DNA from: Opitutia bacterium | GTDB taxonomy: Bacteria; Verrucomicrobiota; Verrucomicrobiia; Opitutales; Opitutaceae | NCBI GenBank assembly: GCA_947467625.1 | Contig: CANIJN010000024.1 | Coordinates: 1 to 35,465, forward strand | DNA: 35,465 nt | Direction: 5' to 3' | Part shown: one piece after another, positions 6,638 through 30,820 of the stretch | How the letters are laid out: the number at the start of each line of letters is the position of its first letter | Position numbering within the stretch: the stretch's first letter is position 1 | Program-made: the position numbers and the translations under genes | The notes under the pieces: model-generated | The model's input: the letters and a program-made list of their open reading frames with translations, nothing else | Told to the model about the DNA's origin: nothing | The model's database searches: none

Positions 6638-7180
6638 TCAGTGCGCGTTGCCGTGGTCTTGGGCGGTTTTCTTTTGGTCCCACTTATAGTGTTGGTCAGG
6701 GAGCGTCCCGCCGAGTTCGTAGAGCTTATCTTTGTGGTTCACCATCTCGGCGCGGGTGTAGCCGGACATCGAGTACTGGTTTTGGAGGAAGATCGCTTCC
6801 TCCGGGCAGACTTCTTGGCAGAGCCCGCAGTAAATGCAGCGGAGCATGTCGATATCGAAGGCCTGCGGGGCTTTTTCGACGTGCGCGCGGTCGGTCTGGT
6901 CAGCGGAGATTTCGCCGGGCGTGATCCGGATGGCTTTGGGCGGGCAGACGAATTCGCAGAGTTGGCAGGAAACACATTTTTCGCGGCCGTTCGGGTCGCG
7001 CACAAGTGTCGGCACGCCGCGGTAGCCGGGAGGAATAGCGGGGCGTTGTTCGGGATACTCGAGCGTCTTCTTCGGCGCGATGAGATGCTTAAAGGTCGTA
7101 GCCAACCCACCCACGATTTGCGGAAGGTAGGTGCGCTCGAGGAGCGTGAGCGGCTTGCGTTCTACAGTGATGACGGCCAT
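6638..7180 (-). CDS. nuoI: NADH-quinone oxidoreductase subunit I (2x[4Fe-4S] ferredoxin-like)
   Basis: 180 aa, peripheral-arm subunit carrying clusters N6a and N6b that pass electrons toward the quinone site. The two 4Fe-4S motifs are intact: CVSCQLCEFVCP with Cys69, 72, 75 and 79, and CIYCGLCQEVCPEEA with Cys115, 118, 121 and 125. RGVPTLVRDPNGREKC before the first motif is typical of NuoI. The N-terminal amphipathic region anchors it to NuoH and NuoA in known structures. It lies between nuoH (18 bp) and nuoJ (28 bp). The leader before the ATG is pyrimidine-rich (CCTTCC), with no Shine-Dalgarno sequence. Confidence 0.97.
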   Translation of the reverse strand: MAVITVERKPLTLLERTYLPQIVGGLATTFKHLIAPKKTLEYPEQRPAIPPGYRGVPTLVRDPNGREKCVSCQLCEFVCPPKAIRITPGEISADQTDRAHVEKAPQAFDIDMLRCIYCGLCQEVCPEEAIFLQNQYSMSGYTRAEMVNHKDKLYELGGTLPDQHYKWDQKKTAQDHGNAH

Positions 7181-7198
7181 GGCGCGGTGCGAGGAAGG

Positions 7199-8359: not shown

Positions 8360-8368
8360 TTCGGAATC

Positions 8369-8599
8369 TTAGATGAAGGAGACGGCAACCAGCACCGCAC
8401 CAAAGCCAGCGACAATCCCACCGGCGAGGCTCAGCTTGGCGTTGTTCTTTTGGTCGATTACGTAGGCGCGCTCATCGGATTTGCGCTTGGGCGCGGACTT
8501 GGCCGCAGCCTGCCCGAGGCGCCGAGCCCACACGAAGAAGGCAATGCCCCCGAGGATAAAGCCAAGACCAAGGGCTAAAATGGGAGTGGAGCGGCTCAT
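8369..8599 (-). CDS. Small two-helix membrane protein of unknown function inside the nuo operon
   Basis: 76 aa, not recognised as a known Nuo subunit. Two hydrophobic segments are visible: residues about 6-24 (ILALGLGFILGGIAFFVWA) and about 55-75 (LSLAGGIVAGFGAVLVAVSFI). They are joined by a basic, Lys/Arg-rich loop (SAPKRKSDERAY), which suggests a hairpin with the loop on the cytoplasmic side. It sits 24 bp after nuoG and 9 bp before nuoH, on the same strand, so it is part of the operon. NuoA has three helices and a conserved acidic loop and is normally about 120 aa; this protein is too short and lacks those features. It could be an accessory or assembly subunit of complex I in this lineage; function is not known. 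Confidence 0.8.
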   Translation of the reverse strand: MSRSTPILALGLGFILGGIAFFVWARRLGQAAAKSAPKRKSDERAYVIDQKNNAKLSLAGGIVAGFGAVLVAVSFI

Positions 8600-8623
8600 G
8601 ATGCGAGGGAAGGCGTCGGGGTG

Positions 8624-10384
8624 TTAGGAGTCGAGGGCAACCGCCGCCGCGGCGGGCTTGAAGTGGAGGGTTTCCCCTTCAACAAATGGCAACGCCGCGA
8701 ACGGCGTAGCATCGATGAGGAGACCGGTCTCGGGGACCTGGGCGTAAGACGTCATCGCGAACGCAGGGACCTCGGCTGAGATCAGTGTCCAGAGCGAACC
8801 GAGATCGGAGGCCATCGGAGCAGAGGAAGCGGCCGCCGTGAGTTTGGCGAGGACGATCAGATCGTCGGTCGCGCCCTGCGGGCCGGGGACGGCTTTGGCG
8901 AACTTCTGAAGGCGGAACTGCTGGTTCACGAACGTGCCGTTCTTCTCGAAAACAGAGAGCGTCGGGAAAACAATCTTCGCGGCTGCGCTCGTGGCGTTGG
9001 CATGCGTGCCGAGGTAAACCACGGAGACGTTCGCGAGCTGCGCGGCGGTGAGGCCGGCGGCGATGAGGTCTTCGCCGATCGAGACGACAACCTTGACTTT
9101 ACCCGCGTCGATCGACGCGGCGAGGTCGGTGAGTCCGCCGGTGCGAATCGGCGCGGCGACCGCTCCCTTGGTGGAACGCGACAAGGGGGTCGCGTCGCCA
9201 ACCTTCGGTAGTTTCGAGATCAGACCGGTCACGAGAGCGCCGCGGACGTTGGGATTGCGGTCGGCGGAGATCAGGAGCTGGTCCCCCTGCCCTACGCGAC
9301 TGACGAGCTGGGTCGAGGCCTTGAGCGCGGCGGCGAGTTTCTTCGTGAGGAATTGTTCTTCGACGGAACTCCGGCCAGAGCCAACGACGGCGATTGCGCC
9401 GGCAGAGGCGTTCATTTTAAACAGTTCGGCCGCTTGCGCCACGAGGGCGTCGAGGTGGGTGGTCGCGACGAGACGATCAGCCGCCATCACTGCTTTGAAG
9501 AGCTCGCGACCGGAGTCGGGCATCCACGTATCATTCACGTCATCGTTGCGACGCGGCGTCAGCCGGTAGATTTGGCCTTCGCGCGACCACACGACGGTGT
9601 TGGCGCCGACGGACGTCTCGGTGTCGATGCTGTTGGTCTGCTTGAGAAACCAGACGCGCATCTTGAAACGGAAATCGGTGCTCGTGAGGGCACCGACGGG
9701 GCAGATGTCGACGGTGTTGAGCGAATAGTTATTCGCGAGCTGCTTGCCGGGGAAGCACGTCAGCGTCGAATAGCTGCCGCGGTCGACAAAGCCGAGGACG
9801 TCGTCCTTCGCTATTTCCTTGGAGAAACGAATGCAGCGCGAGCAGAGGATACAGCGCTCGTCGTCGAGGGTGACGCGCGGCCCAAGCTGGGTGCGCTTCG
9901 GTTTCACATTTTTCTGTTCGACGAAACGCGAGTAGCCGCGGCCGTAGCCGGTGGATTGCTCCTGGAGTTTGCACTCGCCGGCCTGGTCGCAGATCGGGCA
10001 GTCGAGCGGGTGATTGATGAGGAGAAACTCCATCACGCCCTCGCGGGCGTCCTTGACCATGGGAGACGTCGTCTTGACGTGGAGACCGGGGGAGACGTTG
10101 GTGCCGCAGCCGATCTGGGGGCGCGGGATCCAGTTGATCTTGGGCTTACCGGTGACCGGGTCGATGATCGGCGCCTTCGTGGCGGGATCGACCGCGGGCA
10201 TACCCATTTCGATGAGACACATCCGGCAATTGCCCACAATGGTCAGCTTCGGGTGGTAGCAATAGTGAGGCACGTCGACGTTTACGAGGCGCGCGGCCTC
10301 GATGACGTTGGTGCCTTTGGGCACGGCGATCTCCCTGCCGTCGATGTTGACGGTGACGAGGTCGGGTTTGGGCGGAGCGATCAT
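8624..10384 (-). CDS. nuoG: NADH-quinone oxidoreductase subunit G
   Basis: 586 aa, iron-sulphur subunit of the NADH module. The 2Fe-2S N1b ligands are Cys42, Cys53, Cys56 and Cys93 (YCYHP, GNCRMC, IGCGT). The His-ligated N5 motif is HPLDCPICDQAGEC (His125, Cys129, Cys132, Cys138), and the next 4Fe-4S site is CILCSRC with Cys178, 181, 184 and Cys228 in DICPVGAL. The extra N7 cysteines of E. coli and Thermus NuoG are absent: the matching stretch reads SVGANTVVW. The C-terminal molybdopterin-oxidoreductase-like half is short and degenerate, as in mitochondrial 75-kDa homologues; E. coli NuoG is about 900 aa. It lies 15 bp after nuoF. Confidence 0.95.
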   Translation of the reverse strand: MIAPPKPDLVTVNIDGREIAVPKGTNVIEAARLVNVDVPHYCYHPKLTIVGNCRMCLIEMGMPAVDPATKAPIIDPVTGKPKINWIPRPQIGCGTNVSPGLHVKTTSPMVKDAREGVMEFLLINHPLDCPICDQAGECKLQEQSTGYGRGYSRFVEQKNVKPKRTQLGPRVTLDDERCILCSRCIRFSKEIAKDDVLGFVDRGSYSTLTCFPGKQLANNYSLNTVDICPVGALTSTDFRFKMRVWFLKQTNSIDTETSVGANTVVWSREGQIYRLTPRRNDDVNDTWMPDSGRELFKAVMAADRLVATTHLDALVAQAAELFKMNASAGAIAVVGSGRSSVEEQFLTKKLAAALKASTQLVSRVGQGDQLLISADRNPNVRGALVTGLISKLPKVGDATPLSRSTKGAVAAPIRTGGLTDLAASIDAGKVKVVVSIGEDLIAAGLTAAQLANVSVVYLGTHANATSAAAKIVFPTLSVFEKNGTFVNQQFRLQKFAKAVPGPQGATDDLIVLAKLTAAASSAPMASDLGSLWTLISAEVPAFAMTSYAQVPETGLLIDATPFAALPFVEGETLHFKPAAAAVALDS

Positions 10385-10399
10385 CGGAGCAGGAAAAGG

Positions 10400-11761
<1,362 letters not shown>

Positions 11762-11766
11762 GATGG

Positions 11767-12252
11767 TTAGCGTTTCTTTGCCTCGGCTTTGATCTGATCG
11801 CTGAGCTGTTTCGCTTTCGCGCAGTCGACCTTTTCGTGGAGATCGTCGTCGATGAGGACCACGGGCGCGGTGCCGCAGCTGGCGAGACACTCGACGAAAT
11901 CAATCGTCACCTCACCGCCGGGCGAGACTTCGCCGCGGTGGGTGTTGAATTCCTTTTCGAACTGCTCGCAGGTCTTGTAGCCACCTAAGAGCGCGCAAGA
12001 GAGGGTACGGCAGACTTTGATGTGACGGCGACCGATGGGCTTCTGCCGGAACATCGGGTAAAAGGTGATCACTTCCAGCACATTGATCGGCTGGAGTTCC
12101 AATTTTGCCGCGACCCACTCGCAGGTTTCCGGCGGCAAGTAGCCGACATCTTCTTGGATGAGGTGGAGCAACGGGAGCGTCGCGCTGCGCTTCACCGGGT
12201 AATGCGTGATTACCTCGTCGATGCTGTGGAGAGTGGCGGGCTTGAGATTCAT
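11767..12252 (-). CDS. nuoE: NADH-quinone oxidoreductase subunit E
   Basis: 161 aa, thioredoxin-like 2Fe-2S protein carrying cluster N1a, partner of NuoF. The four ligands are present with normal spacing: Cys81 and Cys86 in CRTLSC, Cys122 and Cys126 in CLASC. The N-terminal helical part reads LPLLHLIQEDVGYLPPET, a NuoE hallmark. The C-terminus is Lys-rich. It lies 21 bp downstream of nuoD and 5 bp upstream of nuoF. The ATG at 12250-12252 has no Shine-Dalgarno sequence. Confidence 0.95.
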   Translation of the reverse strand: MNLKPATLHSIDEVITHYPVKRSATLPLLHLIQEDVGYLPPETCEWVAAKLELQPINVLEVITFYPMFRQKPIGRRHIKVCRTLSCALLGGYKTCEQFEKEFNTHRGEVSPGGEVTIDFVECLASCGTAPVVLIDDDLHEKVDCAKAKQLSDQIKAEAKKR

Positions 12253-12273
12253 CGAGCTGGATTCGCGGAAAAC

Positions 12274-13506
12274 TTAGCGGTCGCACTCGCCCATCACGAA
12301 GTCGAGCGAGCCGAGCAACGTGACGACATCGGACATCATCGTGCCGACGCAAATTTTCGGGAGAATGGACAAATTGCAGAACGACGGGGAGCGGATCTTC
12401 ATGCGCCACGGCACGCCGCCGCCTTTGCTCACGATGAAGAAACCGAGCGCACCCTTGGGATTCTCCGCCTCGAAATAGACTTCGCCAGCCGGGATCTGCG
12501 GACCCTCGGTGACGATCATGAAATTCTGGATCAACTCCTCCATCGAGGTGAGGATTTTATCCTTGGGCGGTGCGAAAATCTTGCGGGCGTCCTTCGCATA
12601 CCAGTCGCCACCGGGGAACTTCGCGACGACCTGACGGATGATGCGTACGGCTTGGCGCATTTCTTCGCCCCGGCAGAGATAGCGGTCGTAGCAGTCGCCT
12701 TTCGAGCCGACCGGCACGTCGAACTCATACTGCTCGTAGCCCGAGTAAGGCTTGTCCTTGCGCAGATCGAGCGAGATACCCGAGCCGCGGAGATTGGGGC
12801 CGGTGAGACCGTAGGCCAGAGCGTCCGCTTTCGAGATGATGCCCACACCCACGGTGCGGTCCTGGAAAATCTTGTTCCGCGTCAGGAGCGAAAGCGTTTC
12901 TTCAAGTGCAGGCTCGAATTGGTCGCAAAACGCAATCACGCGATTCAGCCAGCCGTCCGGAATGTCGCGACTCACTCCGCCGATGCGCGTGTAGCTCGTC
13001 GTGAAACGCGCGCCAGTGAGTTCTTCGAAGAGTTTGTAGAGATGTTCGCGCTGATTGAGCGAGTGCACGAGCACACTCCACGCACCGACATCCAAGCCGA
13101 ACGCACCGAGCCCCATCAGATGCGCCGAGACCCGCGCCATTTCCGCCGTGAGCACGCGGATCGCCTGGCAACGCGCGGGCACTTCCAATTTCGCGAGCCG
13201 TTCGACCGCGATGGCGTAGGCCATATTATTGGCAAGCGGCGCGAGGTAATCCAACCGGTCCGTGTAGGGCACGAACTGGTTGTAAGTCATATTTTCAGCG
13301 ATCTTTTCGTCGCCTCGGTGGAGGTAACCGACGATGGGGTCGCACTTCGTCAGTACCTCGCCATCGAGTTCCATCTGCAGGCGCAACACCCCGTGGGTCG
13401 CCGGGTGCGACGGACCCATCGAAAGGGACATTTTCTCGGGCGCGAATTCCTGCTCGGCGCCGGCGGCTTTCGCCGCGCTGTCTGGAAAAGCAAAATCAGT
13501 GGCCAT
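12274..13506 (-). CDS. nuoD: NADH-quinone oxidoreductase subunit D
   Basis: 410 aa, 49-kDa-type subunit that forms the quinone head-group site together with NuoB. Seen: SMGPSHPATHGVLRLQMELD (residues 29-48) with the two conserved histidines (His34 and His38), YTDRLDYLAPL, LTGPNLRGSG, and the characteristic C-terminal end FVMGECDR. The family is related to the large subunit of [NiFe] hydrogenases but lacks the nickel cysteines. NuoC is a separate gene here, not fused. Gaps are 12 bp to nuoC and 21 bp to nuoE. Confidence 0.96.
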   Translation of the reverse strand: MATDFAFPDSAAKAAGAEQEFAPEKMSLSMGPSHPATHGVLRLQMELDGEVLTKCDPIVGYLHRGDEKIAENMTYNQFVPYTDRLDYLAPLANNMAYAIAVERLAKLEVPARCQAIRVLTAEMARVSAHLMGLGAFGLDVGAWSVLVHSLNQREHLYKLFEELTGARFTTSYTRIGGVSRDIPDGWLNRVIAFCDQFEPALEETLSLLTRNKIFQDRTVGVGIISKADALAYGLTGPNLRGSGISLDLRKDKPYSGYEQYEFDVPVGSKGDCYDRYLCRGEEMRQAVRIIRQVVAKFPGGDWYAKDARKIFAPPKDKILTSMEELIQNFMIVTEGPQIPAGEVYFEAENPKGALGFFIVSKGGGVPWRMKIRSPSFCNLSILPKICVGTMMSDVVTLLGSLDFVMGECDR

Positions 13507-19756: not shown

Positions 19757-21052
19757 TCAGGCCGCGTCCTGCGTCGGTTCGGCCTTGGCGTCGGTGCGAA
19801 GCGTAGGCTTCCTGCGACCGGCCACGACCCCCGCGTCGATGATGACCTCGCTCACATCGTCCCTCTGGGGCAACTCATACATCACCTCGAGCATGAGATT
19901 TTCCATGATGGAGCGGAGGGCGCGGGCTCCTGTTTTCAGCTCGATGGCCTTCGCGGCGATCGCCTTCACCGCATCCGGGGTAAATTTCAAGCGCACGCCG
20001 TCCATCGCAAACAGCTTCGCATACTGCTTCACCATCGCATTTTTCGTACGCAGGAGAATTTTCTCCAAATCGGCGACTTGCAGTTGATCCAGCACCGAGA
20101 CGACGGGCAGGCGCCCGATAAACTCCGGGATCATCCCGAAGCGAATCAAGTCTTCAGGGGCCAGCGCCCGCATCAACTGTTCGGGCTTCAGCGCCGCCTC
20201 GTGCTGGGCGGCCACTGCCGAGAAACCGAGACTGCGCGAGCCCAGCCGGCGTTGCACGATGGCGTCGAGTCCAACGAAAGCGCCACCACAGATAAACAAA
20301 ATATTGGCTGTGTTGATCTGGATGTATTCTTGATTCGGATGCTTCCGACCGCCTTGCGGAGGCACATTGCAGGTCGTACCTTCGAGAATCTTCAAGAGCG
20401 CCTGCTGAACGCCTTCACCCGAAACGTCACGGGTGATGGAAACGTTCTCCGTTTTGCGTCCAATTTTGTCGATCTCGTCGATGTAGATAATGCCACACTC
20501 GGCTTTCTTCACATCGTAATTCGCCGCCTGCAGGAGACGGAGGACGACGTTTTCAACATCCTCGCCGACGTAGCCCGCTTCCGTGAGCGTGGTCGCATCG
20601 GAAATGGCAAACGGCACGTCGAGTATCCTCGCGAGGGTGCGGGCGAGCAGCGTCTTGCCCGAGCCAGTGGGACCGAGGAGCATGATATTGCTCTTCTCGA
20701 CCTCGACGTCGTTAAACTCTGGCGACAATCCGGCGGAGTCCTTCCCTGACTGGCCGGAAACAAACATGAGCCGCTTGTAGTGGTTGTAGACGGCAACCGA
20801 GAGCACCTTCTTGGCGTGATCCTGCCCAATCACGTGGTCATCCAGCGTCTTCTTGATCGCGGCCGGTTTGATCAGGCGCAGCGCGGGCTTGATCTCCACC
20901 GTCGGCGCTTTGACTTCACGATCAATGATCGTCTTGCAGACATTGACGCATGAGTCGCAAATGTAGACTCCCGGTCCGGCGATGATTTTTTTAACCTCGG
21001 CCTGCGACTTACCGCAAAACGAACAGAGGGTCATGCGCGCGGATTTTGCCAT
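19757..21052 (-). CDS. clpX: ATP-dependent Clp protease ATP-binding subunit ClpX
   Basis: 431 aa, AAA+ unfoldase that feeds ClpP. The N-terminal zinc-binding domain has Cys10, Cys13 (CSFCGKSQ), Cys32 and Cys35 (CDSC). Walker A is GPTGSGKT (127-134), Walker B is [10 protein letters not shown] (188-197), and sensor-2 is in [20 protein letters not shown]. The IGF-type ClpP-docking loop region is at [11 protein letters not shown], where the motif reads LGF rather than the usual IGF. The C-terminus is Ala/Thr-rich. The gene follows clpP by 68 bp on the same strand, giving tig-clpP-clpX as in many bacteria. Confidence 0.97.
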
Positions 21053-21120
21053 GGCCTTGAAGGTGTGCTGAGCCGCAGGTGAGTCGAGGGCGGAGTTTGC
21101 TTAGTAAGCAGACGCCGGAC

Positions 21121-21738
21121 TCAGGCGGCGGGCGCGACGGCAATCTTTTGCACGTCACGGGTTGACTCCACCACGTGGTCAACAATGCCATAGGCCTTGG
21201 CCTCGTGCGCGCTCAAGTAGTAATCACGATCGGAATCTTTTTCCACCTGCTCAGCGGTCTTACCCGTGTGTTTCGAAATCGTTTCGTTGAGGACTTTGCG
21301 CCAACGCAGGATTTCCTTCGCGGCGATGGCGATATCGGAAGCCTGACCACCGGCGCCACCGCTGGGTTGGTGGATCATCACGCGGCTGTTGGGGAGCGCG
21401 AAACGCTTACCCTTCGTGCCAGCAGCGAGGAGCACCGTGCTCATACTGGCCGCCATGCCGAGGCAATAGGTCACGATATCGCACTGCAGGAAATTCATCG
21501 TGTCGTAGATGGCCATGCCACCGGTCACGACGCCGCCGGGCGAATTGATGTAAAGATGGATGTCCTTCTTCGCGTCCTCCATCTGGAGATAAAGCATCTG
21601 CGCGATCACCAAGTTTGCGACATTGTCGTCAATCGGCGTCCCAATGAACAGGATGCGATCCTTCAGGAGGCGCGAATACACGCTCATGGCCCGCGTCTCG
21701 CGTCCGTTGTTGTCGAAAATGGTTAGGTCGTAGCTCAC
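21121..21738 (-). CDS. clpP: ATP-dependent Clp protease proteolytic subunit ClpP
   Basis: 205 aa, serine protease that forms the tetradecameric chamber with ClpX. The catalytic triad is visible: Ser98 (GMAASMS), His123 ([10 protein letters not shown]) and Asp172 ([11 protein letters not shown]). [18 protein letters not shown] is typical. The glycine after the usual AASM is replaced by serine. The start is a GTG at 21736-21738. An internal ATG 17 codons later would remove NNGRETRA, which aligns with the conserved region before YSRLLKDR, so the GTG is preferred. The leader CCTCCTACCTT is C/T-rich and cannot act as a Shine-Dalgarno sequence. It lies 23 bp after tig. Confidence 0.97.
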
Positions 21739-21761
21739 AAGGTAGGAGGGTTATCGGCCGG

Positions 21762-23084
21762 TTAAGCCGCTGGCGAAATCGTCTTCACCGTAGCCTTGGA
21801 CACGAGGAAATCAACCGCCTTGTCGAATATGATATTCTGCTGCACCGCGCGGAGCTGGTCGCGATCGGTCGTGAGGGTCTTCACGAGCTTCTCGGGCTTC
21901 TGCTGCGTGCGGGCGGATTCCCGGTAGATAAACTCGTCGATGTCGCTACTTTCAACGGTCAGCTTCTCGGCCTCGGCGATCTTCGCGAGGACGAGCTGCA
22001 TCTTGACGCGGTTGGTGGCGGCTTTTTTCGCACCTTCAAAGAGCTCTTTTTTATCTTTCTCGAACTGCTCCTGCGGCACCCCGCGGCGCATATTTTCTTC
22101 GATAAATTGCCGCAGAACGCCTTGAGTCTCGGACTCGACGAGGGAATCCGGCACCGGGAAATCAACCTTGGCCGCGAGCGCCTCGGTGACTTGGCGACGC
22201 TGAGCCGCGCGGTTCTGATAGTCTTTCTGTCCCTTGAGATTCGCGCGTACCTGCGCCTGCAGACCCGCGAGATCGTCGACTTGCTGGGATTGGAAGAACT
22301 CGGCATCAAGCGCCGGCAGCACGCGCTCCCGGATCTCCTGCACCTCGACCTTGTAGATGGCGGATTTACCCGCCAGCGCCGGCACCGCCGGGAATTCTGC
22401 GGGGAACGTGATCGCGACGTCTTGCTTGTCCCCGGGCTTGAGGCCAGCGAGCTGTTTGCCGAGACCGGGGATGACGCCTTCGTTGGTCCCCTCAACTTCT
22501 TCCCACGTCTGCGGGACTTTGCCGTAAAGTTGCTTATCCGGCGCTAAGTCAACGATCGGCTGGCCGTCGATAGTGCCCTCGTAAGCGAGCTTCACATAGT
22601 CGCTCTTCTGCGCGGGACGGTCCGCGGCCTTAAAATCGGCGCGTTCGCCGCGCAGCCCTTCGATCACGCTGTCCACTTCGGTATCCGTGGCGTCGGTCGT
22701 CGTGATTTCCGTCGGCAAATTCGTGTAGTCCGGCAACGTAAAATCAGGGCGGATATCCACTGTGATCGTGATGATCGCGGGCGTACCCATTGCGATCGAG
22801 CCCTCTTCGACATTGACGACATTCAGCACGTCAAGTTTGGACTCCTCGAGGCCGCTGCGGTAGGCCTTGCCCACAATTTTTTGTTTAAACTCCTCGGCGA
22901 TTTCCTTGGCAAAACGGCGCACGATCATCGCGGCTGGAGCCTTACCGGGACGGAAGCCAGGGATGCGCGCCTGCTTGGAAAATTCGCTGACGACCGCCTG
23001 GTGTTCCGCAGCGACTTCGCTCTGGTCAAGAGTAACGACGAGCGTGGTGCGTGTGGCGGAGAGACTATTCTGTTGGACGTTCAC
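21762..23084 (-). CDS. tig: Trigger factor (ribosome-associated chaperone, PPIase)
   Basis: 440 aa from the GTG at 23082-23084 (VNVQQNSLSATRTTLVV), which lines up with the usual MNVQVE start of the family. A second in-frame GTG 42 bp upstream (23124-23126) is possible. The open frame continues to 23672, but that part overlaps tsaB and is not protein-like. The ribosome-binding signature is RIPGFRPGKAP in the N-terminal domain. The FKBP-like PPIase domain runs over about residues 150-245 (YVKLAYEGTIDGQPIVDLA, GLGKQLAGLKPGDKQDV), and the helical C-terminal domain follows. It folds nascent chains. First gene of tig-clpP-clpX; divergent from tsaB with 123 bp between starts. Confidence 0.94.
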   Translation of the reverse strand: MNVQQNSLSATRTTLVVTLDQSEVAAEHQAVVSEFSKQARIPGFRPGKAPAAMIVRRFAKEIAEEFKQKIVGKAYRSGLEESKLDVLNVVNVEEGSIAMGTPAIITITVDIRPDFTLPDYTNLPTEITTTDATDTEVDSVIEGLRGERADFKAADRPAQKSDYVKLAYEGTIDGQPIVDLAPDKQLYGKVPQTWEEVEGTNEGVIPGLGKQLAGLKPGDKQDVAITFPAEFPAVPALAGKSAIYKVEVQEIRERVLPALDAEFFQSQQVDDLAGLQAQVRANLKGQKDYQNRAAQRRQVTEALAAKVDFPVPDSLVESETQGVLRQFIEENMRRGVPQEQFEKDKKELFEGAKKAATNRVKMQLVLAKIAEAEKLTVESSDIDEFIYRESARTQQKPEKLVKTLTTDRDQLRAVQQNIIFDKAVDFLVSKATVKTISPAA

Positions 23085-23207
23085 GGGAGTGTGTGCGGAC
23101 GGGTTTTGGTTGAGAGAATTGGTCACGCTACGTCCCGAGATGCGTCGGTCAATGCCGGATTCTGCGGGCTTGCGCGGGCTCGTCGCGAGACGTTTCTTAA
23201 GGGAAAG

Positions 23208-23849
23208 ATGCCGAGTCTCCGCCAAATTATTGCCGCCCACGCTCCCGTGCTGGTCATCGATGCAGCGGCCACGCGCGTCCAGGTCGGCTGGCTGACCGAT
23301 GGCGAGGTCGGGACGGCGCGCTGGACCACTTCGGACGAAGAAACGGGGGTGGGGCTTTTCACGAGTTTGGCCGCGCTCGGGGTCGAAATCGACGCGGCCA
23401 ACGCGTTTGTTTTTTGCGATGGCCCCGGTTCCGTGCTGGGCATCCGCACGTGCGCCATGGCGCTCCGCACATGGCACGTACTCAAGCCCCGCCCGATGTT
23501 CTCCTATTGCAGCCTCGCGGTCGTCGCCCAAGCGCTCGGCCGACCCGACGTCGGCGTGATCGCGGATGCCCGGCGCGAACTCTGGCACCACTTCACCTTG
23601 GGCGGCTCGCTGCGCCGCGTGCCGGTCGGCGAGCTCCGGGGCGAACTCGTGATGCCGGAAAACTTCCGCCATTGGTCACAACCGCCGCCCGGCTTGACGG
23701 CCATCGCCTACTCGCTCGCCGAACTGCTGCCACGCGTGATCGACGCTGATTTGTGTCGTCCGACCGACGCGCCCGATGCGTTTCTCCACGAGGAACCGAG
23801 TTATGTGACGTGGACGCCGACAATTCACCGCGCACCGTCGGCAACCTGA
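23208..23849 (+). CDS. tsaB: TsaB-like protein of tRNA t6A biosynthesis
   Basis: 213 aa, ASKHA/YgjD-like fold. The signature CDGPGSVLGIRTCAMALRTW matches the GPGSFTGLRIGxxxAKGL motif of TsaB (YeaZ). The N-terminus VLVIDAAATRVQVGWL fits the first phosphate-loop-like strand (LxIDTS in most homologues). TsaB pairs with TsaD and TsaE to make N6-threonylcarbamoyladenosine in tRNAs that read ANN codons. The ATG at 23208 is preceded by aagggaaag, one of very few Shine-Dalgarno-like sites in this window. The C-terminal part is variable. Neighbouring tsaD or tsaE genes are not present. Confidence 0.82.
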   Translation: MPSLRQIIAAHAPVLVIDAAATRVQVGWLTDGEVGTARWTTSDEETGVGLFTSLAALGVEIDAANAFVFCDGPGSVLGIRTCAMALRTWHVLKPRPMFSYCSLAVVAQALGRPDVGVIADARRELWHHFTLGGSLRRVPVGELRGELVMPENFRHWSQPPPGLTAIAYSLAELLPRVIDADLCRPTDAPDAFLHEEPSYVTWTPTIHRAPSAT

Positions 23850-23907: not shown

Positions 23908-26900
23908 TTATTTCACTTCCGTGGTCAGAAACTTCAGCAACTCGACGGCCTCACGCTCAGGGAGCGCTTCGAGCAAGCCGGGCGGCATCAACGATTGCGG
24001 CGTGACCTCGCGGGCTTTGATCGCCGTCTTGGGAATCGTAACCGTCTCGGTCATGGTGCGGACGACCAAGGCCGTCGCCGTTTCTTTATCCAACATCCCT
24101 GAGATCACGGTGCCATCGCGCTGGGTAATGAGATTCAGCTGATAATCCGCACCGACGACGGCGTTGGGGTCCACGATATTTTCCAGAAAATAATCAAGGC
24201 CATTGCGCCAGGTGCCGCTGAGGTTCGGACCGAGCTTGCCAACGGTGGCACCCTCCGTCGCGTGGCAGGCGACACAGGAGCGCTCGAAGACTTTCTTCCC
24301 CGCAGCGACGTCGTAGGACCAGAGCGGCGCTTCGTTGTAGGTCCGGCGCAGTCGCGCCACGGTGGCCTTCATGTCGGCCGAGGACTCAGACGTCTTTCCC
24401 CAGGCGCGATCGAGGAGCGCGGTGACTTCAGGGTTCTTCAAGTTACGGAGCTGGCGGGCGTGCAGCGCCGTGAGCGCCTGTTTGTCGAAACCACCGGCAG
24501 CGACCGCGCGAAGCAGCGGCAGCGCCAGCATCGGGCGACTCGTGAGCGCGGCGAGCGCGGCGGTGCGATCGACGGGATTGAACGAGGGGAAATGTGCGAT
24601 GAGCCCTTCGGCCGCGACAGCAGAATCCGCCGCCGTTCCGAGGAGCGGGATGACCGCCGCGCGCAGGTCTTGGTCCGCCAAGAGTCGCACGAGCAGCGCG
24701 GTCGACTCGGTGTCACCGGCGCGTTTGAGGAGGTCGAGCGCGCGGCGGCGTTCGGCGAGCGGTGTGGTGGTATCGGCGAGGCGGGAGCGGATCACAACGA
24801 GCACGGTTTTGTCGCCGAAGAGCGCGGCGAGCTGCTCATAGGCGCCACGCACCGCCGGATCAGCCGCCGTGGAAAAACGGGTTGCCACCTGCGACCAACC
24901 CACCGGCATTTTCAAGCCCGCTTCACTCTCCAGCGCGAACGACAGCACCCGCAGCGCGCGCGCCGCCGCGGCTTCAGGCAGAGCGGCGATGCGCGCGGCA
25001 AGTTGATCGCGCCCCTCCGGCGTGCGAGCGACGAACCAACGGATCGAGTCGGCGAGCGTCGGCAGCGCGGTGCTCGCCGCAAGATCAAGCGCGCGGGGAA
25101 GATCGCTCGCGACGGCGGGTGCGGCGGCGAACCACACCATTTTGGGGAGGTAACGGTCGGCGGCACTGTCGCCATGTTTCGCGAGGGCGGCGACCACCGG
25201 CCAACGGTCTGCGAGCGGCAGCGCTGGGACGACCGCAGCGATCGCGAGCCGCACGACTGCCGAAGCATCGTTGGTGGCGAGGCGCGTGAGATCGGCGGCG
25301 GAAAGGGCCAGCGCGTTCCGGTTGTCCGTGGCGAGTTGAATCGCCCAAGCGCGCACCGTTTCCGACGAATGCGCGAGCGCGGCGCCGCGTTGCGCGGGTG
25401 CCCAGCTGCCGGTGACGTGCAGCGTCCACAGCGCGCGGAGCTGGGCGACATCACCACCCGAGTTGTCACTGGCCTGCGCACGCAGGTCAGCGAGCGCGGC
25501 GGCAGCGAGCGGCCGGCCAGCGGCGCGCTCTTGGAGCAGGCGACGTGCGGTGCGCACATACCACTCGCTCTGGTGCGTGTGCAGCGCGGCGAGTTGCCCG
25601 TCGGTCATTGCAGCGAGATCGACTTTGATCGGCCGGTAGGTGGCGGCCCAAGCCACGCGATAGAGACGGCCGTTGGTGCGGTCCCAGAGTTCGTCGCGCG
25701 GGTTGTGACAATGCTGCGTGTCGACCCAGTCGATGATGTAGGCTGCGCCATCGGGACCGTATTGGATGTCGACCGCCATGTAGGTGGGGTCGGGCGCGAA
25801 GAGCAGATCGTTGCCGGCGTGAAACGTTTCGTAGGCCGAGCCCGTGCGGACGTTGACCTGCTGGTTGAGTTGGTGGCCGTGAAGATTGTGGGTGAAGAGA
25901 TGATCGCGATAGGTGTCGGGCCAGTTATCGCCGAGGTAGATCATGGTGCCGACATGCGAATGGCCGCCGTAGACCGCGGTGGTGCCGGGCTTGCCGGCGC
26001 CGCCTTCGCCGCTGTCGTAGCGCGCGGAGGCCAACAGATAATTTTTTAACTCGGGTGCGAAGTCGGGTCCGCGATTCGAAATGAACGGCGCGAAACTGTT
26101 GTTCGCTTGGTTCCAGTAATGGCCGTTGCGCACGACGTAGCTCGTGCCGCCACCACCGTAAAAACTGCGGCAATGCGTCATGAAGAGGTGGCCCACACTG
26201 TTGAAATCCAGCCCCCACTGGTTGCTGCCGCCCGCCGCGAACACTTCGAACGCATGGCGCGTCGGATGGTAGCGCCACACCGCCGCACGCACGGGGGTGC
26301 GCTCGGCCGCCGGCGTGCCGGGCTTGCCGACGAGCGCGTGGCTGAACACTCCGTGGCAACCGTAAAGCCAGCCATCGGGGCCCCACGTAAAACTGTTGAG
26401 CGTCTCGTGCGTATCCTGAAAACCCCAACCGTCGAGGAGCACCTGCGGCGGTCCATCAGGCACGTCGTCATGATTCCCATCGGGAATGAAGAGCAGATGC
26501 GGGGCGGCGCCGACCCAGACGCCGCCAAAACCGAGTTCGAGGCCGCTCACGAGGTTCAGTTTCTCGGCGAACACTTTTTTCGTTTCAAACACGCCATCAC
26601 CATTCTTATCCTCGAAGATAATGATGCGGTCCTTACCCTGCCCTTCTGGCTGGCGGTTCGGATATCCGTAGGCCTCGGCGACCCAGAGCCGCCCCCGTTC
26701 ATCGATAGCCATGGCGACGGGTTGGTGTAAATCCGGCTCGGCCGCGATCAGTTCGGCTTGGAAGCCGTGCACGAGTTTCATCCCGGCCACGACTTTTTGC
26801 GCGGCTGGATTCGCAACCGCGGTGGGCTTGGCGGGGTTGTCGCGCAGAGGCCACAGCACGGGACTGGAAGTGAGACGCGTGAGGTCATCGACACCGCTGA

Positions 26901-27726
26901 CGCGCTTCAACGGCGGATCACCGTTGCGGCGATAGGTACCGATGTCGGCGTTGGCGGATGCCGCGACGGCGGACGCAGCCGCCGGAGCGGACGCAGGTTT
27001 CACTGCGACCGCGGGGAGTTCGGTGCGGCCAAGCTGCGTGAGCAGCAGATTGCGAAACTGAATCTTCATCGGGCCGTCGCCGCTGTGCAGCTGGAGGGCG
27101 AGCAAACCGGCGTGGCGCGCAACCCCGGTCTGGTGATCATCGAGCACGGAGACCCGCGTGCCGTTCAGCCACACTTCGATGTGCGAGGCTTGGGCGACAA
27201 TTCGGTAGCGGTTCCACGCGGGCGCGAAGCGAAAGAGGGGTTTGTAATCGTCGACCTCACCGAACTTTTCCGTCCACCGCCGCCCGTCGGGCGCGACCGC
27301 CAGACGCGTGCCGCGGGGTGCGAGCACACTGCGGCCGCGTTCCTCATGGATGTTTCCAAAGCTGCGCGCGCCGAGATCGATATCGGCTTGGTAGCCTTTG
27401 GCGCTGCCGTCGGGCAGCCGCTCCGAACGAAACTGGATGCCGGAGTTGGCCGCCGCCGGACCCGTCAGGCGAAACTCCGCCGTGAGTTCGAAATCGGCAA
27501 CCTCACCCTGCCAGTAGAGGAATTCGTTCTTCGCGAGCGTGGTGCCCGCGGCGATTTCGCCGGTGATGGCGCCGTCCTCGACGTGCCAATCGGCGGTGCC
27601 ACCCGACCAACCAGCGAGCCTTTTCCCATCGAAGATTGGCTGCGGTGCGGGCGGCGCCGCGAACGCGCAGATCGCGCGAGCAAACAAGGCTAGGATGCAC
27701 AACGCAGACAGTAGGTGGCGGGTCAT
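23908..27726 (-). CDS. Secreted fusion: DUF1080 domain, PVC-type dehydrogenase, HEAT-like repeats and cytochrome c domain
   Basis: 1272 aa. Signal peptide residues 1-23 (LLSALCILALFARAICAFA). DUF1080 (Pfam 3-keto-disaccharide hydrolase) covers about 28-232, with IFDGKRLAGWSG, ANSGIQFRSE, GYQADI and NRYRIVAQASHIEVWLNGT. An Ala/Pro-rich linker follows (240-262). The Pirellula/Verrucomicrobium membrane-bound dehydrogenase propeller (TIGR02604 type) covers about 311-690, with PVAMAIDERGRLWVAEAY, FEDKNGDGVFE, GGSNQWGLDF and DWVDTQHCHNPRDELWDR. Ala-rich HEAT-like helices run from about 700 to 1125. A C-terminal c-type haem domain (TIGR02603 type) has CVACH at 1151-1155 and a probable distal Met1247 in SLMPPGL. 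Acts in the periplasm. Inferred role: oxidise a sugar and pass electrons to haem; the DUF1080 part may cleave the keto-glycoside. It is 59 bp after the FG-GAP gene, so probably co-transcribed. Confidence 0.9.
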   Translation of the reverse strand: MTRHLLSALCILALFARAICAFAAPPAPQPIFDGKRLAGWSGGTADWHVEDGAITGEIAAGTTLAKNEFLYWQGEVADFELTAEFRLTGPAAANSGIQFRSERLPDGSAKGYQADIDLGARSFGNIHEERGRSVLAPRGTRLAVAPDGRRWTEKFGEVDDYKPLFRFAPAWNRYRIVAQASHIEVWLNGTRVSVLDDHQTGVARHAGLLALQLHSGDGPMKIQFRNLLLTQLGRTELPAVAVKPASAPAAASAVAASANADIGTYRRNGDPPLKRVSGVDDLTRLTSSPVLWPLRDNPAKPTAVANPAAQKVVAGMKLVHGFQAELIAAEPDLHQPVAMAIDERGRLWVAEAYGYPNRQPEGQGKDRIIIFEDKNGDGVFETKKVFAEKLNLVSGLELGFGGVWVGAAPHLLFIPDGNHDDVPDGPPQVLLDGWGFQDTHETLNSFTWGPDGWLYGCHGVFSHALVGKPGTPAAERTPVRAAVWRYHPTRHAFEVFAAGGSNQWGLDFNSVGHLFMTHCRSFYGGGGTSYVVRNGHYWNQANNSFAPFISNRGPDFAPELKNYLLASARYDSGEGGAGKPGTTAVYGGHSHVGTMIYLGDNWPDTYRDHLFTHNLHGHQLNQQVNVRTGSAYETFHAGNDLLFAPDPTYMAVDIQYGPDGAAYIIDWVDTQHCHNPRDELWDRTNGRLYRVAWAATYRPIKVDLAAMTDGQLAALHTHQSEWYVRTARRLLQERAAGRPLAAAALADLRAQASDNSGGDVAQLRALWTLHVTGSWAPAQRGAALAHSSETVRAWAIQLATDNRNALALSAADLTRLATNDASAVVRLAIAAVVPALPLADRWPVVAALAKHGDSAADRYLPKMVWFAAAPAVASDLPRALDLAASTALPTLADSIRWFVARTPEGRDQLAARIAALPEAAAARALRVLSFALESEAGLKMPVGWSQVATRFSTAADPAVRGAYEQLAALFGDKTVLVVIRSRLADTTTPLAERRRALDLLKRAGDTESTALLVRLLADQDLRAAVIPLLGTAADSAVAAEGLIAHFPSFNPVDRTAALAALTSRPMLALPLLRAVAAGGFDKQALTALHARQLRNLKNPEVTALLDRAWGKTSESSADMKATVARLRRTYNEAPLWSYDVAAGKKVFERSCVACHATEGATVGKLGPNLSGTWRNGLDYFLENIVDPNAVVGADYQLNLITQRDGTVISGMLDKETATALVVRTMTETVTIPKTAIKAREVTPQSLMPPGLLEALPEREAVELLKFLTTEVK

Positions 27727-27785: not shown

Positions 27786-29021
27786 CTACTTCTTCTGCGA
27801 CAACAGTACCGCCGTACCGCGCTTGTTGCCCACGACGAAATCAGGGCGGCCGTCGCCATTTACATCGGCTGCGATGAGCTGGGTGCCGACGCCGGTCGTG
27901 TCGTCCAGCAGACGCGGCTCGTAGGAGACGGAGTGGTTCGGACCACGCCGCAGGAGAAACGCGTAGAGCACGGGCGTACCCGAGGGATCAGCATCACCGC
28001 TCGGTCCATGCGCCCACCACCGTTTGCCTGTCACGATGTCGAGCAAGCCGTCACCATCGACATCGCTCAGCACAACCGCATGAAGCTGGGAAAACTGCGC
28101 GCCGGCGATTTTCTCCGCGGGTTTTTCGGAGAGAATCACGTGTTCCTTAAAATGACTCTCACCACCGTCGGTCGCCCGCACTTGCTCAAACCATGAGAGC
28201 CCGTAGCCGTGCGCGGCCTTGCTGGTGATCACATCGGGGACGCCGTCGCCGTTCACATCCAGCACATACATTTGCGCGCCACCCTTGGCAGCGAAGGAAA
28301 ACGGGTGACGCTTCCACAAAGGATCGCCCGCGAGCGACGCCGGTTGCTCCCACCAACCATCTTTTTCCAAGATGTCATTGAGCCCGTCGCCGTTCACGTC
28401 ACCGAAGCCGAGACCGTGGGTGAAGCGCTGCCAACCAGGCATGACTGGCGAGACCGCATGAAACGTCCACGGGCGGGCCGGGTCCTTCGGCTCCAACGTA
28501 AAGTAACCAATCCGGCCCGCGCTCATACACACGATCGACGGCGGGCCCTTCGCGAGCAGTGGGCCAAAGGTCGGGGATTCGTTGTCCACGGGCAGCGCGG
28601 CCACATAACGGCGCCACGGGCCGCCCTTGACTCCGGGATTCTGATACCACGACGCGTCGACGCCCGGGAAGCCCAGCACCAGCACATCGGGCCAACCGTC
28701 GACATTGAAGTCGTAGGTGAATGCAAAAAAATTATCGGAGTATTTCAGCGGATCGAACACCGACGGCGTAAACAGCTCGTGCCGCTTCGTGAAGTCCGGC
28801 CCCTCATACCAATACGGTCCGGAGACGACATCGAGTTGGCCATCCTTGTTGAAGTCAGCAAACGCCGCGCCCTCGGAGTAAAACTCCTTCGAGAGCGTGA
28901 GTTTCTTATAGGCCGGGGTGGCGGCCGCGCTCGCCGCAGCGACCTCCGCGATGGGCGCGAACGCGAGTGCAAGCAAGAGAACGCGCGTGAGCGCGGCGAC
29001 GAGAGAGCGGGTGGACTTCAT
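27786..29021 (-). CDS. Secreted FG-GAP/VCBS-repeat beta-propeller protein
   Basis: 411 aa from the ATG at 29019-29021 (MKSTRSLVAA). Signal peptide to about residue 30 (LLLALAFAPIAEVAAASA). At least five calcium-binding FG-GAP/VCBS loops of the DxNxDGxxD type are visible: DFNKDGQLDVV, DVNGDGLNDIL, DVNGDGVPDVI, DVDGDGLLDIV and DVNGDGRPDFV. They suggest a seven-bladed propeller, exported and extracellular or periplasmic. No catalytic residues can be named. The reading frame stays open to 29207, but the extra part has no secretory character. The gene precedes the DUF1080-dehydrogenase fusion by 59 bp on the same strand, so the two probably form an operon. Confidence 0.88.
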   Translation of the reverse strand: MKSTRSLVAALTRVLLLALAFAPIAEVAAASAAATPAYKKLTLSKEFYSEGAAFADFNKDGQLDVVSGPYWYEGPDFTKRHELFTPSVFDPLKYSDNFFAFTYDFNVDGWPDVLVLGFPGVDASWYQNPGVKGGPWRRYVAALPVDNESPTFGPLLAKGPPSIVCMSAGRIGYFTLEPKDPARPWTFHAVSPVMPGWQRFTHGLGFGDVNGDGLNDILEKDGWWEQPASLAGDPLWKRHPFSFAAKGGAQMYVLDVNGDGVPDVITSKAAHGYGLSWFEQVRATDGGESHFKEHVILSEKPAEKIAGAQFSQLHAVVLSDVDGDGLLDIVTGKRWWAHGPSGDADPSGTPVLYAFLLRRGPNHSVSYEPRLLDDTTGVGTQLIAADVNGDGRPDFVVGNKRGTAVLLSQKK

Positions 29022-29820: not shown

Positions 29821-30627
29821 TTACGGCAAGGGGCGCACCCAGATATTGCGCATCCGCACGGGCGGCTCGTTCTTGTGATCTTGAAAACGGAACGGCGCCT
29901 TCTCGGGAAACGTTCCACTGTAGCTGGTGACCTGCTTGTGCTTCGTGGGCCCCATAATCGAGGTGTTGTTTTGCACGCAGACCCCATTCACGAACGTCGT
30001 GATGCGGGCGGGCTCGACGACTTTACCAGCAACGAGCTTCGGGGCCGTGAAGATGATATCGTAGACCTGCCACTCGCCGGCCTTGCGCCCGGCATTCACC
30101 AGCGGAGGCGTCTGCCCATACACACTGCCGGTCATGCCATCGGCATAGGTCGGGTTATTGTCGCAATCGAGCATCTGGCTCTCGTAGCGATCCATGAAAA
30201 ACACGCCGGCGTTTCCCTTCTTTTGGGAGTTACCTTTTTGGATCTTCGCATCACTCCGCCACTCGACATGCAGCTGGCAACTCGCGAACTCGAGTTTCGT
30301 CCAGCAGTCGCCACCATTCACGATCAGTTCCCCGTTCTCGATCACCCACGGCGAGGGCTGCGGAGTGGGGTCATCTTTCTTGCGACTGAACAATTGCGAG
30401 GTGTCCTTGCCGTTGAAAATGATGATCGCATCGGCCGGTGCATCGCCAAGTTTGGCCCCGGGAGCCACGACCGGAGGTGCCGGGCGATCGATATCGTGAA
30501 CTTTCCATTTTGAACCCGGGATGAGCGGCGTGTCGGAGTAGCCGACGGGAGAGGGCTTGTTGTCGTCAGCGGCGAAGGCGACGGTACTGACGAGCAGAGC
30601 CGCGAGGGAGAGCAGTTTAGTTTTCAT
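29821..30627 (-). CDS. Secreted stand-alone DUF1080 (3-keto-disaccharide hydrolase family) protein
   Basis: 268 aa from the ATG at 30625-30627 (MKTKLLSLAA). Signal peptide MKTKLLSLAALLVSTVAFA. One DUF1080 (concanavalin-like jelly-roll) domain: DAIIIFNGKDTSQLFSRK, WVIENGELIVNGGDCWTKLE, CQLHVEWRSD, NAGVFFMDRYESQMLD, EWQVYDIIFTAPK, ITTFVNGVCVQNN and VRMRNIWVRPLP at the end. The family is now linked to hydrolysis of 3-keto-glycosides. It is exported to the periplasm or beyond. The leader is CCTCCCTTTTATCCCCC, with no Shine-Dalgarno sequence. The open frame extends to 30816, but that part is the out-of-frame shadow of a 42-aa ORF. Confidence 0.92.
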   Translation of the reverse strand: MKTKLLSLAALLVSTVAFAADDNKPSPVGYSDTPLIPGSKWKVHDIDRPAPPVVAPGAKLGDAPADAIIIFNGKDTSQLFSRKKDDPTPQPSPWVIENGELIVNGGDCWTKLEFASCQLHVEWRSDAKIQKGNSQKKGNAGVFFMDRYESQMLDCDNNPTYADGMTGSVYGQTPPLVNAGRKAGEWQVYDIIFTAPKLVAGKVVEPARITTFVNGVCVQNNTSIMGPTKHKQVTSYSGTFPEKAPFRFQDHKNEPPVRMRNIWVRPLP

Positions 30628-30671
30628 GGGGGATAAAAGGGAGGTGCGAACGGTTGGGCTTGGGGGTCCGG

Positions 30672-30691
30672 CCACCGTGATCAATCGGTGG
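30672..30691. repeat. Inverted repeat next to the 42-aa ORF stop
   Basis: ccaccg-tgatcaat-cggtgg is a perfect 6-bp stem with an 8-nt loop. On the plus strand it is followed by ttatttttt, which looks like an intrinsic terminator for transcription moving rightward. No plus-strand gene ends here, so it may stop antisense transcription or be coincidental. Confidence 0.35.
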
Positions 30692-30820
30692 TTATTTTTT
30701 ACCCTTCTTCGCGCCCGAGGCGTCCGGCATTTTTTTAAATTTGTGCAACGGCTTCTGCTTTTGCTTGAAGCGTTGGCTGGCCTTGAGGTCTTTGATCGTC
30801 GGTAGATATTTGGCACCCAT
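30692..30820 (-). CDS. Possible 42-aa Lys-rich small protein
   Basis: ATG at 30818-30820, stop TAA at 30692-30694. It starts MGAKYLPTIKDLKASQRFKQ, continues KQKPLHKFKKMPDASGAKKG and ends in two lysines. It is strongly basic (about 14 Lys plus one Arg in 42 residues) with no membrane segment. Not recognised. An in-frame TTG start would add LGSPDIDGLAV-like residues. It lies 64 bp upstream of the DUF1080 ATG on the same strand, so it could be co-transcribed, or be a leader peptide. There is no Shine-Dalgarno sequence. The Lys-rich bias may simply reflect A-rich intergenic DNA, so the call is tentative. Confidence 0.4.
   Translation of the reverse strand: MGAKYLPTIKDLKASQRFKQKQKPLHKFKKMPDASGAKKGKK

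Follow-up and report, generated by a model that had tools for sequence, protein, structure and literature searches.

Two described systems bear on the protein reported here. Lac161_ORF7 (AGW45552), a purified TIGR02604-HEAT-cytochrome protein, is presented in the accessible portions of its report as a β-galactosidase with a Km of 1.8 mM and a kcat of 13.2/s on lactose (PMC5342196), a reported hydrolysis that the initial annotation of our locus overlooked in calling the biochemical role of the TIGR02604/TIGR02603 family essentially unknown. In Caulobacter crescentus, a DUF1080 gene near that for lactose 3-dehydrogenase is required on lactose, and its product is a proposed 3'-ketolactose hydrolase, according to the available part of that study (PMC9007349).

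The window, by which we mean the whole 35,465-nucleotide stretch of Opitutia bacterium DNA analysed, holds on its minus strand one open reading frame of 1272 aa from its ATG (23908-27726), whose product runs from a signal peptide through a DUF1080 domain, a β-propeller and a helical repeat to a TIGR02603 haem domain with a CVACH site. This order in a single frame, proposed in the initial annotation, is confirmed by Pfam/NCBIfam search, with the signal peptide judged by eye and the helical repeat taken from a structure model. The features are as follows:

27655..27726, minus strand: signal peptide, residues 1-24, judged by eye from the sequence
27046..27642, minus strand: DUF1080 / PF06439 '3keto-disac_hyd', residues 29-227 (Pfam E 5e-32)
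26791..27045, minus strand: Ala-rich linker, residues 228-312, from the sequence
25651..26790, minus strand: TIGR02604/DUF7133 β-propeller, residues 313-692 (Pfam/NCBIfam)
24337..25629, minus strand: HEAT-like helical repeat, about residues 700-1130 (model and Foldseek)
23920..24312, minus strand: TIGR02603 c-type haem domain, residues 1139-1269 (NCBIfam E 5e-28)
24262..24276, minus strand: CVACH haem attachment site, residues 1151-1155, from the sequence
23986..23988, minus strand: M1247, likely distal haem ligand, from alignment with Kustd1711
27786..29021, minus strand: gene for an exported FG-GAP/VCBS protein, separated by 59 bp from the fused gene and upstream of it, its start chosen by us at an internal Met ahead of a signal-like stretch
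29821..30816, minus strand: second, stand-alone DUF1080 gene with YESQMLD (E-x-Q-x-x-D type), from the sequence

Export of the chain is also expected because a c-type haem needs it. The DUF1080 domain belongs to PF06439 (111.9 bits against a cut-off of 26.8, over model positions 3-184 of 187), and the propeller is matched by both PF23500/DUF7133 (residues 313-692, E 2e-64) and TIGR02604 (residues 321-692, E 9e-103, 344.4 bits against 122.2). TIGR02603 also lies over its cut-off (97.7 against 68.15 bits), together with a Cytochrom_C match at residues 1140-1171 and the CxxCH motif, which classes the product as a PVC-type haem protein. The label 'HEAT' earlier given to the repeat holds in part: the model is helical over about residues 709-1150 and HEAT scaffolds, for example the PP2A A subunit, are among the Foldseek matches, but Pfam HEAT has no match in this protein. 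Model 1 is weak over residues 238-279, in the linker, and 499-590; in genomes G052 and G064 the linker region contains an extra module of about 200 aa.

We propose, with a confidence just short of even, that the fused chain is an exported, haem-wired enzyme in which glycosides are oxidised and then split stepwise. The propeller, with its PQQ sugar dehydrogenase fold, would oxidise the sugar ring, with C3 the most likely position, and the C-terminal His/Met c-type haem would pass the electrons on to a periplasmic carrier. The DUF1080 domain would next subject the 3-keto-sugar to elimination, hydration or both, with release of the aglycone, and the helical repeat would join propeller to haem. 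Oxidation is argued for by the sugar dehydrogenase class of the propeller fold, electron exit by a c-type haem with a conserved Met, and cleavage by the likeness of the DUF1080 fold to solved 3-keto-glycoside eliminase/hydratases. The initial annotation had likewise suggested that oxidation, electron exit and cleavage may be joined in one chain, and this claim gains from fold classes that fit all three and from a recurrent join, and loses from a missing E-x-Q-x-x-D, changed PQQ residues, the failure to find PqqC, the absence of DUF1080 from two orthologues and its degenerate state in a third.

Because the join recurs in related bacteria, the chain is predicted probably to oxidise and then split sugars. 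Among the best 80 of at least 585 propeller relatives, 48 carry DUF1080 in the same chain, 22 of them before the propeller, spanning Verrucomicrobiota and Planctomycetota, and 26 after the haem domain; the window's domain order is also seen in genomes of its own family (G067, G091, G054, G081, G052 and G064). The C-terminal type is also present in a named strain, Blastopirellula marina DSM 3645 (L112). A chance frame or misassembly is ruled out by this recurrence across other genomes. In trees of the quick type, with SH-aLRT supports and no bootstrap, a single clade of N-fused DUF1080s is rejected (AU p 1e-62). The propellers of loci L069 and L070 are of the window type, and membership of their DUF1080s in the main N group, a group defined after the tree was seen, is rejected (AU p 0.017), which suggests that these two chains carry a replaced DUF1080. 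Taken together, the trees point to roughly three separate fusion events, with the domain replaced once; the notion that the N- and C-terminal DUF1080s represent two independent joins was dropped, the main N and C groups being compatible with one clade (p 0.58). No report of the joint architecture is apparent among the papers listed in searches of an open-access library.

Structurally, the propeller falls among sugar dehydrogenases: its 16 top matches all belong to glucose/sugar dehydrogenases or AA12 (Z 26.3-30.3), led by 3a9g (Z 30.3, 296 aligned, 2.8 Å), then 6i1t (29.3), with sGDH 1qbi at 27.7, and HHIP (best Z 25.3) and lactonase/DFPase entries (22-24) come lower. A profile-profile match to GSDH sequences has a probability of 96% (E 4e-9); as a sequence relative in the PDB, one chance-like match only was returned (E 0.056). 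The residues that we take to bind PQQ in sGDH are H144, R228, N229, K377, R406 and R408 (sGDH numbers). By profile alignment, Asn229 is kept in the window propeller, R228, K377, R406 and R408 have become S, H, M and V, and the His144 counterpart sits one residue off register, outside the aligned stretch. Over the 71 rows of alignment A3 (the window's own protein and 70 loci, the other 10 of the 80 being left out for want of a haem-domain match), the R228 position is S in 71, the R406 position R in 12 and the R408 position R in 0, and H440, E441, N444, N502, C519, H589, N614, D666, D669, C673 and H674 are identical in every row. PqqC was found in 0/12 genomes that encode this protein or a related one (completeness 90% or more in 10 of the 12); since this search had no positive control genome, it was extended to 115 genomes of the phylum, of which 5 matched, 4 over the cut-off. 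Uptake of PQQ from outside the cell is possible. With four PQQ-holding residues changed and PqqC in none of the 12 genomes, PQQ is no more than a candidate cofactor of the propeller.

Alternatively, the propeller might catalyse hydrolysis or a lyase reaction at a metal or His/Asp/Glu centre, which would make the chain an unusual glycosidase in which the haem serves otherwise. Loss of the PQQ-holding residues, retention in 71/71 rows of eight residues (H440, E441, N444, H589, N614, D666, D669 and H674), the presence of propeller lactonases and the propeller lyase 2z2p among the structural matches, and the lactose splitting reported for Lac161_ORF7 are all consistent with such a centre. We nonetheless consider it unlikely, as both Cys and the His of the haem CxxCH, together with Met at the M1247 position, are kept in 71/71 rows, which is hard to explain without redox, and sugar dehydrogenases are the best structural rows. 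M1247 aligns with M292 of Kustd1711, for which C or H is substituted in 7zs1/7zs2. The Lac161_ORF7 preparation was moreover a His-tagged product of E. coli whose activity was followed with a glucose kit, in a report whose accessible text does not mention haem loading (PMC5342196).

On the proposed route of oxidation followed by cleavage, we infer that the fused DUF1080 would perform elimination, hydration or both on a 3-keto-sugar. In the structure model this segment resembles 4jqt (Z 23.2) and 9fbe (Z 20.2), and rows 2, 13, 15 and 16 of the comparison correspond to solved structures of 3-keto-glycoside eliminase/hydratases or of 3-keto-2-hydroxy-glucal hydratases, two of these four having bound 3-keto sugars. 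Clostridial neurotoxin binding domains, which appeared as profile matches of the DUF1080 alignment, were read as sharing a lectin-like fold only. The initial annotation had named the absence of DUF1080 catalytic residues as a refutation. The E-x-Q-x-x-D of the solved PF06439 members compared, a putatively catalytic pattern, is absent from the fused domain, which reads GYQADID (the solved member 3hbk reads GLEFQLLDD). Another conserved set, R100, Q113, D115, E129 and R132, is present, together with N188, Q212 and H214. The first domain of BT3469 (4jqt) is of the same kind, with Q113/D115 and the R100, E129, R132 set. In an 82-row DUF1080 set the five residues are complete in 30/32 N-fused, 26/26 C-fused and 6/24 unfused domains, the unfused rows coming from this genome and the flanks of TIGR02604 loci and so not forming a random sample. 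The set omits repeats (loci L001, L004, L007, L009, L010 and L072) and matches under 130 aa, among them the window's stand-alone DUF1080 and L083, and retains the near-copies L002/L060 and L003/L057.

DUF1080 could also be a carbohydrate-binding module only, tethering the propeller-haem enzyme to glycan without cleavage. CBM66 uses the same fold (4azz, Z 17.9, under most DUF1080 rows), and Thermogutta shows overlapping matches to DUF1080 and CBM66 in the available part of that study (PMC5673643). A binding module would suit a domain free to stand at either terminus, the lectin-type LamG and F5/8C modules found in other TIGR02604-like chains of this genome (1/42 each), and the domain's absence, in frame and nearby, from two close orthologues (G031 and G043, 79% and 74% identity) and degenerate state, with key residues gone, in a third (locus L056 in G081). 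We judge this improbable: the five polar residues occur together in 56/58 fused copies at both chain ends, a retention that seems beyond the needs of a plain binding module, and the nearest structures include enzymes acting on 3-keto sugars. Further observations count against stepwise oxidation and cleavage, among them a lower median conservation of DUF1080 than of the propeller (56% versus 76% in 17 of 26 chains, those set aside being L007, L069, L070 and 6 that lack a haem-domain match) and the Pedobacter DUF1080 genes, none of which has a lactose phenotype in the accessible part of the report (PMC9007349).

This genome carries 42 TIGR02604-like genes, of which 24 exceed the family cut-off, and 31 DUF1080 matches, with the two joined in 3/42. 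Clustering of unfused DUF1080 near TIGR02604 genes is not significant (4/28 within 3 kb, P 0.07; 5/28 at a 5 kb limit, P 0.09, contig ends ignored), a point against the main explanation. An FG-GAP part belongs to the same chain in 32 of the best 80 of at least 585 relatives, and the upstream FG-GAP protein probably belongs to the same functional unit as the fused chain. ThuA, a domain tied to 3-keto-trehalose, is a same-chain partner in 3 of those 80 and in 4/42 of the genome's own genes, which counts for the main explanation; other partners, GDSL esterase in 4/42 among them, weigh against it, having no known keto-sugar link.

One paralogue, L032, a single observation with its N-terminus cut by the contig end, has four domains in the order DUF1080-TIM-propeller-haem, with an AP_endonuc_2 TIM barrel and a propeller below the TIGR02604 cut-off (82.5 versus 122.2 bits). 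The metal-type residues of the barrel (H366/H368, D398, H424 and E466 or E468) have an HxH-D-H-E spacing of +32, +26 and +42/44, against +31, +26 and +44 in AtOGE, a 3-keto-glycoside eliminase with its site at H132/H134, D163, H189 and E233 in the accessible text (PMC10628242); the agreement to within 1-2 residues comes from a count of spacings, and sites of this kind also occur in other TIM barrels. No second whole copy of this four-domain type was found in 288 genomes (at E 1e-50, scoring two candidates in each). G178 encodes DUF1080-TIM as a single frame, followed after 73 bp on the same strand by a frame that contains CxxCH, has no Pfam match and matches the propeller only weakly; G103 has TIM-DUF1080-DUF1080.

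A division of labour, in which DUF1080 would take the 3-keto-glycosides of other dehydrogenases and the propeller would oxidise a different substrate, with the join only co-localising them, would agree with so few joined genes in this genome and with the proposal, in the available text, that the Caulobacter DUF1080 acts in trans with LacABC (PMC9007349), but is very unlikely given a recurrent join and the apparent exchange of one DUF1080 for another within a single propeller subfamily.

Stepwise oxidation and cleavage can be stated more fully, as one chain serving as an alternative glycosidase with oxidising, electron-exporting and bond-splitting parts, a rebuilt non-PQQ propeller site and a co-evolved DUF1080 subtype; taken whole, this is somewhat unlikely. 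If true, it would assign a function to a haem protein family whose members extend through Verrucomicrobiota and Planctomycetota. Sugar oxidation that enables cleavage by DUF1080, ThuA or a TIM barrel would constitute a glycan route missed by ordinary glycosidase annotation, and one that could pass electrons directly to respiration. The conserved residues named above open this idea to direct testing.

Set beside known systems, the chain is plausibly predicted to be a haem-linked variant of 3-keto-glycoside cleavage. Lac161_ORF7, assigned to Verrucomicrobia, has the propeller, HEAT and haem order of the window protein, a likeness by description and not by sequence, but DUF1080 is not among the three domains described in the accessible portions of its report. 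The soluble PQQ sugar dehydrogenases (sGDH 1qbi, Asd 2g8s, 3a9g and AA12) have the propeller fold in common with the window protein, which keeps Asn229, whereas R228, K377, R406 and R408 are not kept in its subfamily and the window chain, unlike them, carries its own haem. The PF06439 3-keto-glycoside eliminase/hydratases (9fbe, 8rr2, 8tda, 8v31 and 3osd, which is BT2157) share fold and Pfam family with the fused domain but lie outside any propeller-haem chain, with E-x-Q-x-x-D in the members shown. The proposed order of chemistry is similar to the oxidation-elimination-hydration-reduction of levoglucosan LgdA-B1-B2-C (PMC7676230), where the proteins are separate, and, as far as the accessible texts go, to that of the AtOGE pathway (PMC10628242) and of LacABC with DUF1080 (PMC9007349), where it is again divided among separate proteins rather than carried by a single haem-bearing chain.

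The fused gene joins its domains in a single reading frame, with the following features.

23908-27726 (-): fused gene, single frame of 1272 amino acids
Residues 29-227 (-): DUF1080 domain, PF06439 (Pfam and NCBIfam)
Residues 313-692 (-): DUF7133/TIGR02604 propeller (Pfam and NCBIfam)
Residues 1139-1269 (-): TIGR02603 haem domain with CVACH (Pfam and NCBIfam)

The initial annotation had read DUF1080, propeller and haem site in one frame, and the domain search that it proposed, run against Pfam and NCBIfam, confirms that order within the 1272-residue frame. The HEAT region that it placed between propeller and haem domain stands in part: Pfam has no HEAT match there in the window protein, but this stretch is a helical repeat in a model of good quality (mean pLDDT 90, pTM 0.83) that spans residues 300-1272, and its Foldseek matches include HEAT scaffolds. 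By eye, the N-terminus is signal-peptide-like.

The joined architecture is widespread, and the annotated observation is more general than could be known from the sequence alone. Scanning a propeller alignment against genome contigs confirmed at least 585 relatives, of which the best 80 include both Verrucomicrobiota and Planctomycetota. The closest relatives with a name are Opitutus sp. GAS368-like and Opitutaceae MAGs, so an Opitutaceae host is most likely. In the main frames of these best 80, DUF1080 lies ahead of the propeller (N-fused) in 22 and after the haem domain (C-fused) in 26, while 32 (24 whole, 8 cut by a contig end) are without it; ThuA is in frame in 3 (L077, L094 and L095). No paper on this architecture was apparent in searches of the open-access literature. 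Two relatives, L010 and L054, have an extra module of ~200 amino acids between DUF1080 and propeller (no Pfam match in L010), in the place occupied by the Ala-rich linker of the window's chain.

A quick tree built from 82 DUF1080 domains (SH-aLRT support, AU tests) places the C-fused domains in one group (SH-aLRT 98). The N-fused domains do not group together: a single clade is rejected (AU p 1e-62), L031 with L069/L070, as well as L032, fall outside the main group, and well-supported branches require at least three changes of label. Three separate joins would be the simplest reading, although release of a fused DUF1080 may stand in for some of them. Losses also happen in orthologues: chains in genomes G031 and G043 (79% and 74% identical) are missing the domain, with none in the flanks by HMM or tblastn, and that of G081 (L056) is degenerate. 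The L069 and L070 propellers fall within the clade of the window's propeller (20 rows, support 100), yet their DUF1080s are rejected from the main N group (p 0.017, for a group named after the tree was seen); the original DUF1080 was apparently exchanged for a different one. The main N and C domains as one clade gave p 0.58; since they may share one origin, the change of chain end may be a move of DUF1080 rather than a second join.

CxxCH and M1247 are invariant in 71 of 71 aligned rows. M1247 aligns with M292 of Kustd1711, the residue replaced by C or H in the 7zs1 and 7zs2 structures, which suggests a His/Met-ligated haem. Sugar dehydrogenases are the best structural rows for the propeller, in agreement with a profile comparison against six GSDH-type frames of the window's genome and an sGDH sequence. 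The pocket was mapped with sGDH numbering (H144, R228, N229, K377, R406, R408). N229 is kept; H144 is matched by counting only, one residue off and outside the aligned stretch; and R228, K377, R406 and R408 become Ser, His, Met and Val in the profile alignment. Of the 71 rows, all have Ser at R228, 65 have His at K377, 12 have Arg at R406 and none has Arg at R408, whereas R228 and R406 are each Arg in 22 of 42 TIGR02604-like genes of the window's genome (rough alignment). This difference in Arg counts suggests that the DUF1080-carrying subfamily has rebuilt its pocket, while other members may still hold PQQ. H440, E441, N444, H589, N614, D666, D669, H674 and two cysteines are invariant (71/71). 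None of the 12 genomes searched gave a PqqC match, and within the phylum 5 of 115 genomes did.

The window's genome (5.59 Mb, 96% complete) holds 31 DUF1080 profile matches and 42 TIGR02604-like genes, merged from 55 matches; by our own count 24 of the 42 exceed the TIGR02604 cut-off. Their Pfam partners, the window's gene included, are ThuA (4), GDSL esterase (4), DUF1080 (3), DUF6797 (2), a plastocyanin-like copper domain (2), which is a possible alternative electron carrier, and, once each, AP_endonuc_2, DUF6807, FG-GAP, LamG and F5/8C. Because GDSL and lectin partners occur, the attached domains are not all about keto-sugars.

On the same strand (-), 59 bp separate the fused gene from the end of an upstream FG-GAP gene whose start is signal-like. 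The two probably act together, since 32 of the best 80 relatives carry FG-GAP within the chain itself, and G052 has one 1824-aa frame of FG-GAP, DUF1080, propeller and haem domain. A further DUF1080 gene lies in the window.

29821-30816 (-): stand-alone DUF1080 gene, E-x-Q-x-x-D type, another sequence type than the fused domain

A terminator-like hairpin with eight T lies downstream of it, from a scan whose total of 7 sites compares with 7.7 expected by chance. On the 3' side of the fused gene lie genes of the ClpX, Clp protease and trigger-factor types (19757-23672, -), and respiratory complex I genes (Pfam: antiporter-type subunits, chain 6-, NADH dehydrogenase (NuoH)-, NuoG-, 51K- and 49K-type) occupy 600-13506 (-).

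Cleavage of 3-keto-glycosides by DUF1080 would fit the fold of the domain, but its residue type differs from that of the solved hydratases. The modelled segment matches 4jqt (BT3469; Z 23.2), solved 3-keto-glycoside eliminase/hydratases and 3-keto-2-hydroxy-glucal hydratases (9fbe, 20.2; 8rr2, 19.1; 8v31 and 8tda, 19.0) and CBM66 (17.9). In alignments, solved members such as 3hbk carry E-x-Q-x-x-D, whereas the fused domain has a different polar set (R100, Q113, D115, E129, R132) and is close to the first of BT3469's two domains; those two pair the same types as the window's fused and stand-alone genes. All five residues are present in 30 of 32 N-fused and 26 of 26 C-fused rows versus 6 of 24 unfused, which favours a pocket that is active and linked to fusion; such conservation offers no argument for catalysis shared with the solved hydratases. 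Nor does the family name prove a substrate, since a Thermogutta member is reported as an endo-glucanase acting on xanthan (PMC10881899).

The TIGR02604/TIGR02603 role, annotated as essentially unknown, is not blank, because PMC5342196 reports beta-galactosidase activity for a purified TIGR02604-HEAT-cytochrome protein. PMC9007349 ties a Caulobacter DUF1080 protein, through fitness data, to lactose use and lactose 3-dehydrogenase, with no such phenotype for DUF1080 genes in a Pedobacter; PMC7676230 sets out an oxidation-elimination-hydration-reduction scheme, and PMC5352709 counts 18 proteins related to that of Lac161_ORF7 in Isosphaeraceae, along with 20 that carry DUF1080. The initial annotation proposed that the propeller oxidises a sugar, the haem exports electrons and DUF1080 acts on the 3-keto-sugar. 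In its favour are the recurrent joining and the apparent domain replacement; against it stand a PQQ pocket whose residues have changed, a DUF1080 of another type and orthologues that have no DUF1080. We regard it as a good hypothesis, falling slightly short of probable. One paralogue fits this scheme very well, as a single, contig-cut observation.

G000:C242:4122-8096: L032, in the window's own genome, 1325-aa frame with N-terminus cut by the contig; DUF1080, AP_endonuc_2 TIM barrel, propeller and haem domain

Its propeller scores below the TIGR02604 family cut-off. Elsewhere, G103 has TIM-DUF1080-DUF1080 in one frame (L210, 311-2560), and G178 has DUF1080-TIM in one frame (L209, 5778-7310), 73 bp ahead of a same-strand CxxCH frame without a Pfam match. 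The TIM barrel of L032 nearly matches the metal-site spacing of AtOGE, whose residues are those given in PMC10628242.
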